From Vallitalea pronyensis (GTDB lineage Bacteria > Bacillota > Clostridia > Lachnospirales > Vallitaleaceae): 64,000 nucleotides of DNA. The position numbers were made by a program, and so were the translations under genes. Position 1 is the first letter of the stretch. Every line of letters starts with the position of its first letter. Positions 635-57,194 of the stretch are shown piece after piece. Below the pieces are notes generated by a model that was not told the origin of the DNA, did no database searches, and saw nothing but the letters and a program-made list of their open reading frames with translations. Location of the stretch: positions 6,033,001-6,097,000 of the forward strand of contig NZ_CP058649.1 in the NCBI RefSeq assembly GCF_018141445.1, written 5' to 3'.

Positions 635-2284
635 TTATTCAGTAATATTTTTTCTATATTCCGTAACGGACATTTTCATATACTTTTTGAAACATAAACT
701 AAAGTAGTTAGGATCAATAATACCGACTTCATTGGCAACTTCATATACCTTCAATTCTTTGTTTCTCAATCGCTCCATGGCTTTTTCCATTCGTAACTTT
801 ATAATTTGTTCCTTAAAAGATAGACCTTTTTTCTGTTTGTATATTCTTGAAAGATAGCTTGGGTTCATAAAAAAAGTTTTTGCACATCCCTTTAAGCTTA
901 ACTCAGCATCCGATAAATGCTCAACAATATACCGATCGACTTTAGCAATAATATCCGTATCTAAGTTACGTTTATACCTATTAATCGCTGTGACCATTTG
1001 TGTAACATAGGCTTTAACAAAGCTTTCTCCTTTACTCAATGTAACGACCTGATAAACATTTCCAAAATCATGCAGTTCTTTAAATTTCTTTGATTCATTT
1101 AAACAGTTTTGAATATTTTTATCCAGGGATAAGGTGAGAAATTCCAAATTGGAAATAATGCGGGTTATCTGAAATCGAAAGAATGGTTCTCTTTGATGCT
1201 CCATACATCGAATGCAGTCACTAATTCTTCTAAACAAGGTTTCAACTGTTTCAATGGCTTCCTTTACGAGTCCAGCTTTAATGTAAAATTTTAATTGCTC
1301 AAGCTCCTCTGTAAAATATGTCTCATCTAAATCCACTTCATTCATGATTCCCATGTCATCCATAGAGAAAATCGTATCATTCCCTTGTATTCTACCCATT
1401 TGCAACGCCTGTTTGGCTTCAAAGGCAGCGTCATATAACTTCGTAATGTTATCCTTCATGGTACTGATACCAATAATCATATCCTTGATACCACTTTGAT
1501 TTAACACTTTAACATAATAATTCAAGACAGTTACCATATTAAAATGACTATTTGCATTATAGATATACAGCATGTTATTCACATCTGAAAAAAGATATAC
1601 TTGCTGACTTTCTTGTCTTGCTCCAATGATTTCTTCAAGGATGATCTTACCCTTTAACATGCTTTTATACGCCTCTATTTTAGACCCATTGTCGCTATTT
1701 TTAGAAAAAAAGTCAATCATGCCAATTTGATGATGTTCAGATTCAACGGGTATGTCATACAGCTCACCATACTCATTGATGGGCTCTATAGCAACTTTTT
1801 GGGAAATAAGCTTCAAAAAAATGCGCTCTCTCATATACGCTTTCTCGTTTTCAATTCTTTCCAACAAGATATCATAGGCAATTTTTTTCTCAAGTTCATC
1901 ATAAATATCAGCAACCATTTTTTTAACAACCGTTTCAATCTCTTCATAGTCTATAGGCTTTAATATGTAGCCTTCTATGCCAATGTCGATACCTGTTTTA
2001 GCGTATTCAAAGTCATCATACCCTGTTAAAACAACAATTTTTATGCTACTATCATTCTCTTTAATCTTCTTGGCCATGGCCAACCCATCAATGATTGGCA
2101 TATTAATGTCTGTGATTAATATATCGATTGGGTGTTCATCCATATAATCATATACTTCTAATGCACTTGATGCTTTTAGAACCAGCTTACAACCCACACT
2201 TTCCCAATTAACTTTTTCACTTAGTAATTCACGAATTAAGTATTCATCGTCAACAATCACAACATGTAATCGCTCTTTAGTCAT
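635..2284 (-). CDS. YesN-type response regulator (REC + AraC-type HTH)
   Basis: A 549-residue response regulator. The receiver domain covers about residues 5-125, with the acidic pocket at D12/D13, the phosphoacceptor at D59 (LITDINMP) and the conserved Lys in ILKPID. A long middle region of about 300 residues follows, then a C-terminal AraC/XylS helix-turn-helix pair (from about residue 450, ending in the YFSLCFKKYM signature). The ATG at 2284 is chosen because it overlaps the kinase stop codon by 8 bases and the receiver domain begins there; the longer frame reaching 2365 only reads kinase DNA. By family precedent the phosphorylated protein activates the adjacent sugar transporter genes. 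Confidence 0.93.
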   Translation of the reverse strand: MTKERLHVVIVDDEYLIRELLSEKVNWESVGCKLVLKASSALEVYDYMDEHPIDILITDINMPIIDGLAMAKKIKENDSSIKIVVLTGYDDFEYAKTGIDIGIEGYILKPIDYEEIETVVKKMVADIYDELEKKIAYDILLERIENEKAYMRERIFLKLISQKVAIEPINEYGELYDIPVESEHHQIGMIDFFSKNSDNGSKIEAYKSMLKGKIILEEIIGARQESQQVYLFSDVNNMLYIYNANSHFNMVTVLNYYVKVLNQSGIKDMIIGISTMKDNITKLYDAAFEAKQALQMGRIQGNDTIFSMDDMGIMNEVDLDETYFTEELEQLKFYIKAGLVKEAIETVETLFRRISDCIRCMEHQREPFFRFQITRIISNLEFLTLSLDKNIQNCLNESKKFKELHDFGNVYQVVTLSKGESFVKAYVTQMVTAINRYKRNLDTDIIAKVDRYIVEHLSDAELSLKGCAKTFFMNPSYLSRIYKQKKGLSFKEQIIKLRMEKAMERLRNKELKVYEVANEVGIIDPNYFSLCFKKYMKMSVTEYRKNITE

Positions 2285-55714: not shown

Positions 55715-56995
55715 TCAAGATAATCTGTATAATTTGATTTTCTTAAGACTTTTATAATTTGAAATAATATTATTTTTTGAAATCGGCTTCCCATGTGCAG
55801 GATAGACTTTTTTATAATCAATCGTCATCATCTTTTGCCAGCTTTTTTTGTATTCGAGCATATCTTCTATCCAAATGATTATATGATGAAGACTTGGCAA
55901 TCCATTCATCACAGCATCACCTGAAAACAATATTTCGTCATCAAATAACAAACCAATTGAATCATGTGTATGTCCTGGTAGATCTATAATTTTTGCTGAA
56001 AGACGTTCTTCAATCTTTTCTCTATTATGGTCATCAATGATTAAAAATCTATCGCTCACTATGATTGGTTGAAATCTATGTTCACCCTTTCCTACTAACT
56101 TCATAACTTGACAGAAAAACCATGCCAATCGACTACTGCAACCACCATCAAAAGAGTTTTGTCCCTTTTCTAACTGATTCACTGACTTATGATTAATAAT
56201 AATTTTTGCTGTGGTTTCTTCCATCAGCTGATATAGGAATCCAACATGGTCATCATGAGCATGAGTGATAAATATATATGCAATGTCATTAAGACTTATA
56301 TTGTTTTTACTAAGCTCACTTTTAAATGTTTCCAAATACTCCTTATAACCAGTATCAATGAGTATGTATCCTTCATTTGATTCAACTAAATATACATTAC
56401 TAATTCTATTTCCGACATTTATAATTCTTTGATCAATTGGTTTTCTTAAATTGAACTGTCTACGTACTTCCTTTCCTAACTCTTTATCAACCGTCATAAC
56501 CTTTTCAATATATTCATCAAAGTATTCATACTTTTCAATATCTGTGCCAAATAAGATTATTTCCATTTTCTTTCGCATTATGTGGACTGTTTCGATTGCT
56601 GAATAATCTTGAATATCTCCAAGTAAGCACAATGTGTCAACAAGACTATCCATTGCTTTTTCGTGTGAAAAAGGTTTCCTTTTGATGGTTGATATCTCTT
56701 CAATATTAGTTATCTTTGTTTCTTTCTCTTCAATAATTGCATTGATATGATTTTTGGCATGTCCAATTATACAGGATTCACCACTGCAAATTTTACAATA
56801 CTCTGTGCCCATGCATATACTATCTAGATCCTCCCTCAAATGTTTATAATAGTCTTGTAAGCGCTGTGCTTTTACTCTATAGGCAGACTTTATACCTTTT
56901 TTTCTGTGTTGAAATAGTTTTGCCACCATAAAACCTGTTATGCTGATTAATAAAATCACTAAAGGTAGAACAAACTCAACATTTCCGCTATACAT
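55715..56995 (-). CDS. Membrane-anchored metallo-beta-lactamase-fold hydrolase under a manganese riboswitch
   Basis: 426 residues from the ATG at 56995, behind GGAAGGAG (the TTG at 57010 overlaps this site). A helix at about 8-27 (FVLPLVILLISITGFMVAK) is followed by a cysteine-rich stretch (CMGTEYCKICSGESC) and a helical region. The MBL domain covers about 190-420: NVYLVESNEGYILIDTGY, metal motif THAHDDH, GHTHDSIG, LFSGDAV and a final His in YPAHGKP. All metal ligands are present. Substrate unknown. A yybP-ykoY riboswitch with its terminator stands directly upstream, so expression should rise with Mn2+, and the enzyme may itself use manganese or protect against its excess. Confidence 0.9.
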   Translation of the reverse strand: MYSGNVEFVLPLVILLISITGFMVAKLFQHRKKGIKSAYRVKAQRLQDYYKHLREDLDSICMGTEYCKICSGESCIIGHAKNHINAIIEEKETKITNIEEISTIKRKPFSHEKAMDSLVDTLCLLGDIQDYSAIETVHIMRKKMEIILFGTDIEKYEYFDEYIEKVMTVDKELGKEVRRQFNLRKPIDQRIINVGNRISNVYLVESNEGYILIDTGYKEYLETFKSELSKNNISLNDIAYIFITHAHDDHVGFLYQLMEETTAKIIINHKSVNQLEKGQNSFDGGCSSRLAWFFCQVMKLVGKGEHRFQPIIVSDRFLIIDDHNREKIEERLSAKIIDLPGHTHDSIGLLFDDEILFSGDAVMNGLPSLHHIIIWIEDMLEYKKSWQKMMTIDYKKVYPAHGKPISKNNIISNYKSLKKIKLYRLS

Positions 56996-57011
56996 ATGAT
57001 CTCCTTCCAAA

Positions 57012-57066
57012 TAAAAAGAGACCTATAGATTAAATGGCGTAAAACACCAATTAATCCATAAGTCTC
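57012..57066 (-). terminator. Riboswitch expression-platform terminator
   Basis: On the minus strand a stem of about 20 pairs (57066-57045 against 57038-57018, with a few G-U pairs) is followed by TTTTTA. Its 5' arm starts with GAGACTTAT, which is also the closing 3' strand of the riboswitch aptamer, so aptamer and terminator cannot form together. Confidence 0.88.
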
Positions 57067-57153
57067 GCTCCATTAATAGTTATTAAAGTAAATAAGACCA
57101 GGATTCCTCCAGTATGTTGATCTTATTTTGGTTTCCCATAGCTACTCCCTTAT
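57058..57153 (-). promoter_or_regulatory. yybP-ykoY (manganese) riboswitch aptamer
   Basis: Minus-strand landmarks in order: closing stem ATAAG, AGGGAGTAGC, GGGAAACC, a long arm AATAAGATC ... GGTCTTATT capped by a GGAGGAATCC hairpin, a variable arm, then GGAGCGAGAC and CTTAT. This follows the Lactococcus yybP-ykoY element almost part for part. Ligand-bound aptamer closes the ATAAG/CTTAT stem and should prevent the terminator, turning the gene on with Mn2+. Confidence 0.9.
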
Positions 57154-57165
57154 AGAGTTAACCCA

Positions 57166-57194
57166 ATTTTAACAAACGTCTATGAGACTGTCAA
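57166..57194 (-). promoter_or_regulatory. SigA-type promoter of the riboswitch transcript
   Basis: Minus strand: TTGACA (57194-57189), 17-base spacer, TAAAAT (57171-57166). The transcript would start near 57159, a few bases before the aptamer. The rest of 57195-57332 shows nothing further. Confidence 0.85.

Follow-up and report, generated by a model that had tools for sequence, protein, structure and literature searches.

A predicted manganese riboswitch precedes the putative enzyme half of a UPF0016 exporter fusion in Vallitalea pronyensis

A compact RNA leader, apparently a variant of the yybP-ykoY class of manganese riboswitches, precedes a gene for a membrane-anchored protein with a metallo-β-lactamase (MBL) fold in Vallitalea pronyensis. 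We favour, with a probability of roughly 0.7, the reading that a Mn2+-ON riboswitch here drives a cytosolic enzyme, one half of an exporter fusion, and that the gene was formed by deletion. An initial annotation of this DNA had proposed an ON riboswitch of the manganese class that controls an MBL-fold protein anchored in the membrane, and the sequence supports this.

Organization of the locus

In the window, i.e., the whole stretch of 64,000 nucleotides that was analysed, the elements lie on the minus strand in the order promoter, aptamer, terminator, ribosome binding site and ORF. The sigma-70 type promoter TTGACA-17-TAAAAT (57166..57194) agrees with the consensus at 11 of 12 positions. Taken alone it is weak, with two promoter-like sites seen versus 2.0 expected from shuffles of the region. 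TTGACA is found at a similar distance in the leaders L002, L005 and L041, and this placement together with the consensus match bears out the SigA promoter of the initial annotation. The ribosome binding site GGAAGGAG (57001..57008), read from the sequence, precedes the start codon ATG at 56995; a mechanical ORF list starts the frame at TTG 57010.

The ORF (55715..56995) encodes 426 amino acids with a membrane helix, a four-cysteine (Cys4) domain and an MBL-fold domain. A probable deletion junction lies just 3′ of its first five codons, MYSGN (56981..56995). The single membrane helix (56912..56971) was assigned as the equivalent of exporter helix 7 from alignments, with hydrophobicity and charge judged by eye, and is followed by the Cys4 motif C-x5-C-x2-C-x4-C (C61–C75; 56771..56815). 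The MBL-fold domain (55793..56413) carries HAHDDH (245–250), H342, D360 and H401. PF00753 matched residues 195–401 with an E value of 9.3e-24 and the HxHxDH/H/D/H ligand set is complete, which places the protein in the MBL fold; helix and four cysteines are likewise present, as the initial annotation had it. A role as β-lactamase was rejected, since the B3 model NF033105 scored 62.8 bits versus a cut-off of 240. PF01169 had no match in the window protein, which thus lacks the UPF0016/GDT1 signature (E-x-G-D-(K/R)-(S/T)/PF01169), and when the rest of the window was searched by tblastn with the fusion described below, no remnant of the exporter reached significance. Structure prediction gave a model of low confidence for the window protein (mean pLDDT 60.0) and an unusable one for the fusion (pLDDT 46.9), and the Cys4 domain had no resolved fold in the predictions. 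Foldseek with the low-confidence window model yielded TM-scores by target of 0.39–0.48 among the 50 matches listed.

On its C-terminal side, the helix is flanked by the positively charged stretch KLFQHRKKGIK, and by this charge the MBL part is probably cytosolic. For two-domain UPF0016 proteins, a positive-inside analysis placed the central loop in the cytosol (passages of PMC4067407). With a cytosolic central loop and six helices, the UPF0016 C-terminus would lie outside, and a seventh helix would hence bring the Cys4-MBL part into the cytosol.

Relatives and origin of the gene

A search with the window protein at E ≤ 1e-20 matched 7 of 22 family genomes, V. pronyensis itself (G000) included. 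Full-length relatives are found at L002, L003 and L004, single ORFs of 613–628 amino acids that are 48–50% identical over the aligned part and carry, in this order, two GDT1 stretches (UPF0016), a seventh membrane helix, the Cys4 domain and PF00753. Two of these fusions, L002 and L003, are preceded by an aptamer of identical sequence (RF00080, 20.4 bits). At the third, L004 in G006, no aptamer was detected by RF00080 or by R1, a covariance model built from ten distinct leaders. Related genomes thus do pair the riboswitch with an MBL domain, in two of three fusions, although this domain is fused to an exporter there. Further full-length relatives were found neither in 392 genomes of the order (E ≤ 1e-45) nor in 398 genomes of the phylum (E ≤ 1e-35). 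At L004 (3300–3900), a PAP2-like ORF, recognized by eye, occupies the place where the aptamer would be and, also by eye, runs into the apparent tail of a terminator; a similar PAP2-like ORF, again by eye, adjoins a standalone MBL gene in G765 (L082, 2636–3376).

The window gene is evidently the C-terminal half, comprising helix 7, Cys4 and MBL, of the larger fusion seen in these relatives. An enzyme rather than an exporter had been named as the target in the initial annotation. This stands for the enzyme half, whereas in three relatives the MBL domain forms the C-terminal part of a UPF0016 exporter. Judged from the sequences, the target is new in architecture and finds its explanation in fusion with the usual target, the UPF0016 exporter. 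One review screened strains that possess a UPF0016 member and places the gene under yybP-ykoY control in 328 of 333 (passages of PMC7380456). The titles and abstract openings listed by literature searches yielded no description of Cys4 and MBL domains added to UPF0016, of a UPF0016-MBL fusion or of an MBL gene controlled by a manganese riboswitch; in passages of PMC10550928, manganese-riboswitch and MBL wording occurs separately and is not joined. The C-x5-C-x2-C-x4-C motif is present in 22 of 24 distinct frames that match a two-motif UPF0016 pattern among the loci collected, a count that leaves out L071, a GDT1 protein by Pfam that falls outside the pattern.

How the gene arose may be read from a sister genome, G010. 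Here the same aptamer is followed by an α/β-hydrolase gene with a missing stretch and then by a broken gene, in which the first GDT1 residues run straight into the Cys4 domain; the end of the MBL domain lies in another frame. The MBL remnant corresponds to window residues 397–425 (62% identical). In a tree of the Cys4 domain, in which two intact fusions were kept, G010 groups with the window (99/96) beside the two intact fusions (98/95); the four-row group is supported with 90/81 and, together with two UPF0016-Cys4 proteins without MBL domain, with 100/100. The 24 rows of this tree were chosen by the Cys4 motif, so that motif conservation within it results from selection and the 22 of 24 frames given above are the fairer measure.

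After the terminator, window and G010 have 25 of 34 ungapped nucleotides in common, through ribosome binding site, ATG and first codons, and then the similarity drops. None of 20,000 shuffles was as good, with ribosome binding site and start codon being shared by function. The G010 hydrolase starts with MYLGNEYWKNYM (MYLGN), a hydrolase homologue in the V. pronyensis genome (L089) with MFEGNAYWKNYM (MFEGN) and the window protein with MYSGNVEF. The simplest account would be an ancestral operon of aptamer, hydrolase and UPF0016-Cys4-MBL gene that suffered one in-frame deletion. From the three sequences and the relatives, the likeliest event is that the upstream α/β-hydrolase, at about codon 5, was fused in frame to exporter helix 7, which would have removed the exporter part; in none of the relatives was the ancestral operon found intact. 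We had also considered a leader-peptide origin for the start that the window gene has in common with the hydrolase of G010, and dropped it because L089 begins with similar residues.

A deletion of this kind could have left a mere by-product, i.e., a working riboswitch in front of a truncated helix-Cys4-MBL protein without a present role. We regard this as a real possibility, albeit a doubtful one. The exporter part is gone from the window gene, and in the sister copy of G010 the hydrolase, the exporter and the MBL domain are each broken. The five remaining genomes of the genus yielded no orthologue, and two of them gave only MBL matches of about 35% identity. With its operon broken in the sister genome and its orthologues missing from these five, the window gene may thus be a relic. 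The V. pronyensis genome moreover contains an intact UPF0016-Cys4 exporter elsewhere (L047, two GDT1 stretches), behind its own variant aptamer. Six relatives agree at 63 MBL positions, of which the window protein keeps 57 and changes six, the second highest loss of seven proteins. On the other hand, the 426-codon ORF is intact and the MBL metal ligands are present, and 57 of 63 lies within the leave-one-out range of the relatives, for which 57 were kept of 57, 59, 60, 61, 62 and 66 positions. Conservation of the window protein is therefore inside the range of its relatives, toward the lower end; a recently truncated gene could not be told from a conserved one in this way. In the Cys4 tree, the end branch of the window (0.63) is longer than those of the intact fusions (0.51 and 0.52) and shorter than that of the broken G010 copy (0.86). 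All these features would also be expected after a recent deletion.

Alternatively, the product may act as a stand-alone MBL enzyme that is induced by manganese and has a manganese stress role of its own, independent of any exporter, which we consider unlikely. Its active-site residues are intact, and MBL-only relatives, 41–47% identical over the domain, are found in G116, G057, G733 and G765, so that the MBL domain does not need an exporter everywhere. Yet these standalone relatives have no R1 aptamer within flanks of about 1.5 kb, and in all three cases of an intact Cys4-MBL part found beyond the window, this part is fused to UPF0016. By eye, the neighbourhoods of the standalone genes (L038, L039, L081, L082) show no common partner. 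The search also returned a weaker MBL match with one internal stop in G698 and, in G557, a UPF0016-Cys4 protein that was matched in its Cys4 part.

The aptamer and its relatives

The aptamer spans 103 nucleotides (57056..57158), a position corrected here from that of the initial annotation, and is indicated by RF00080, R1 and covariation. Its fold comprises P1 and the pairs next to it, P2, which is capped by a GAAA loop, P3, which carries the L3 bulge, and P4; pair counts on the leaders give the four-way junction P1–P4, and the minimum-energy fold shows the same helices. In P1, 57155–57149 pair with 57062–57056 (CUAUAAG/CUUAUGG). L1 reads GGGAGUAGC and L3 ACAUACU, with A57115 as the presumed Mn-contacting adenosine; compared with the RF00080 consensus and the L3 of X. 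oryzae, the conserved L1 and L3 cores including this adenosine are present.

RF00080 matched the leader at 57149–57029 with 23.8 bits and an E value of 7.3e-5, calculated for 311 bases against 4227 Rfam families. The gathering cut-off of the family is 45 bits, and by this Rfam score rule the window aptamer fails. As a consequence, an Rfam scan of the whole window at the gathering cut-off returned no match; a search of the V. pronyensis genome with RF00080 gave no match at E ≤ 1e-3. The initial annotation had named yybP-ykoY as the class and would have given it up if RF00080 scored below threshold. The E value and the leader covariation uphold the class and the score falls short of the threshold, but this threshold missed all ten distinct leaders scored (17.6–33.5 bits), eight of which precede UPF0016 genes. 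In 14 control genomes, RF00080 had matches in five, above the cut-off in only two, and compact leaders were missed. Rfam-derived gene lists are thus probably incomplete in these Clostridia. The leader most probably represents a compact variant of the known class.

The ten leaders, with the window among them, were collected from genomes of the family and from one named MAG. Related to one another, they were aligned with MAFFT without structure, whereas the structure itself was taken from the window. On this alignment 98.8% of 320 cells are paired, nine of 32 pairs are changed on both sides and the covariation score is 0.253. Shuffled controls reached a mean score of 0.125 and a mean of 5.5 double-change pairs, and 5 of 500 attained nine; further pair types did not exceed the shuffles (441 of 500). 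With slid partners, the score was at most 0.067, with zero or one double-change pair. Anatomy and covariation of the leader are observed features. Six UPF0016 leaders of the genus (L009–L011, L015, L018 and L020) share L1 GGGAGUAAC, whose pairing is preserved by a double change from G-C to A-U, and L3 ACAUAAU, in which the Mn-contacting adenosine is kept. Judged by these motifs, they form a second aptamer subtype, which in V. pronyensis occurs beside the canonical one.

R1 matched 12 of 22 family genomes at E ≤ 0.01 and, family members included, 65 of 392 genomes of the order; the 106.8 bits of the window aptamer follow by construction, as it is a training leader. From 79 distinct places we inspected 39, namely the best-scoring ones of the order search and all 19 family loci. 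Ten are training leaders: eight stand before UPF0016 genes, one before the G010 hydrolase with the broken UPF0016 gene, and one is the window. The first genes behind the other 29 encode, by Pfam, UPF0016 (11), MntP (5), P-type cation ATPase (5) and radical SAM-SPASM proteins (4), a Na/Ca exchanger and an oxaloacetate decarboxylase beta subunit, while one has no Pfam match and one locus lies at a contig end. The L048 leader is identical to that of L002. Relatives of the leader thus precede Mn2+ export genes. In V. pronyensis, R1 has three matches, the window, C1:4988564 before the UPF0016-Cys4 gene, and C1:4216674; the MntP gene (C1:5096250) has none.

The match at C1:4216674 (L060, 43.6 bits) precedes a gene of the Na/Ca exchanger family (PF01699). 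Four R1 loci (L056–L059 in G016, G015, G018 and G014; 36.8–41.5 bits) stand before a 456-amino-acid radical SAM + SPASM protein, an arrangement seen in four of the six genomes that represent the genus and an unusual possible target of a manganese riboswitch. A match in G380 (L080, 43.8 bits) before the beta subunit of a Na+-transporting oxaloacetate decarboxylase may be chance or a different target. At E ≤ 1, RF00080 matched none of eight R1 loci (L051, L056–L060, L072, L076) at the R1 place. As L072 precedes an MntP and L076 a P-type ATPase gene, these misses reflect a weakness either of RF00080 or of the weaker R1 matches. About 730 bases upstream of its R1 match, L076 has a partial RF00080 match (771–809, plus strand; 26 bits, model positions 47–85), perhaps a second leader or chance.

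Could the variant sense another divalent metal than Mn2+? Its score below the RF00080 cut-off and the three divergent aptamer versions before different genes in one genome point this way, but L1 and L3 of the window are canonical, including the Mn2+-contacting adenosine of the class, and R1 loci precede UPF0016 and MntP genes. We therefore hold another metal to be very improbable.

The aptamer is followed by an intrinsic terminator (57013..57066), a segment of 54 nucleotides with −28.6 kcal/mol that ends in TTTTT (57017–57013); its hairpin segment has a z-score of −8.6. The 5′ arm contains the P1 3′ strand, all seven nucleotides of which are paired inside the terminator fold. P1 and terminator are thus mutually exclusive, in agreement with the initial annotation, and closure of P1 would turn the gene ON. 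The overlap recurs in all ten leaders, with 5–7 of the seven P1 nucleotides inside the terminator fold. An ordinary attenuator or chance fold has next to no probability, for although only the terminator stands out in a simple scan and the folding energy of the aptamer exceeds that of shuffles just moderately (z −2.1; 6 of 200 as good), the covariation and slid-partner controls, the RF00080 E value and the same aptamer at two of three intact fusions all speak against it.

Proposed mechanism and function

By analogy with the class, from which we infer Mn2+ binding and read-through, Mn2+ bound between L1 and L3 would hold P1 closed. Closed P1 would keep its 3′ strand out of the terminator and the gene would be transcribed, while without Mn2+ the terminator would form. 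At high Mn2+, the cell would hence make the cytosol-facing, membrane-anchored MBL hydrolase and, from the second locus with its own variant aptamer, also the intact UPF0016-Cys4 exporter. We suspect that the MBL part is a metal-dependent hydrolase that once worked for the exporter on the inner side of the membrane and may do so to this day. It is possible that the protein is a Mn-dependent enzyme or a new arm of the manganese stress response, as initially suggested. More specifically, MBL might be the Mn2+-induced enzymatic partner of the UPF0016 exporter, joined to it in the fusions of the relatives and supplied in trans here from a riboswitch of its own; we put this forward tentatively and rate it as rather doubtful. 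If true, manganese efflux would be coupled to a cytosolic hydrolase, which would regulate the exporter via the shared Cys4 domain or clear a product that is harmful at high Mn2+. That no neighbour of the window gene explains the enzyme counts against our favoured reading.

The fused hydrolase points directly to a partner for the UPF0016/GDT1 family of Mn2+ exporters, whose human member TMEM165 is tied to disease (passages of PMC7380456), and in the window gene this domain is available for assays without the exporter.

Comparison with known systems

With the yybP-ykoY class (RF00080), the window leader shares L1 GGGAGUAGC, L3 ACAUACU and the P1–P4 four-way-junction pairing; it differs in its compact, A+U-rich form, which scores 23.8 bits versus the cut-off of 45. 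Its L3 matches that of X. oryzae, ACA48U49ACU52, where N7 of A48 contacts Mn2+ (passages of PMC6754395). As in the ON switch of L. lactis, in which a P1 strand is common to the terminator (passages of PMC11087558), the window leader shares its P1 strand with the terminator. In contrast, the UPF0016 leaders of the same genus depart from the class with L1 GGGAGUAAC, L3 ACAUAAU and the compensated pair.

Among MBL hydrolases, subclass B3 and HARLDQ-motif proteins are nearest by profile and by Foldseek with the model of pLDDT 60; the window protein shares their HxHxDH, H, D and H ligands but has its own GQNSFxGGCSSRLAW block. Like the UPF0016/GDT1 Mn2+ exporters MneA, TMEM165 and Gdt1p, the orthologues of the window protein carry two N-terminal GDT1 stretches, to which they add the Cys4 and MBL domains, whereas the window gene itself is without a GDT1 domain.
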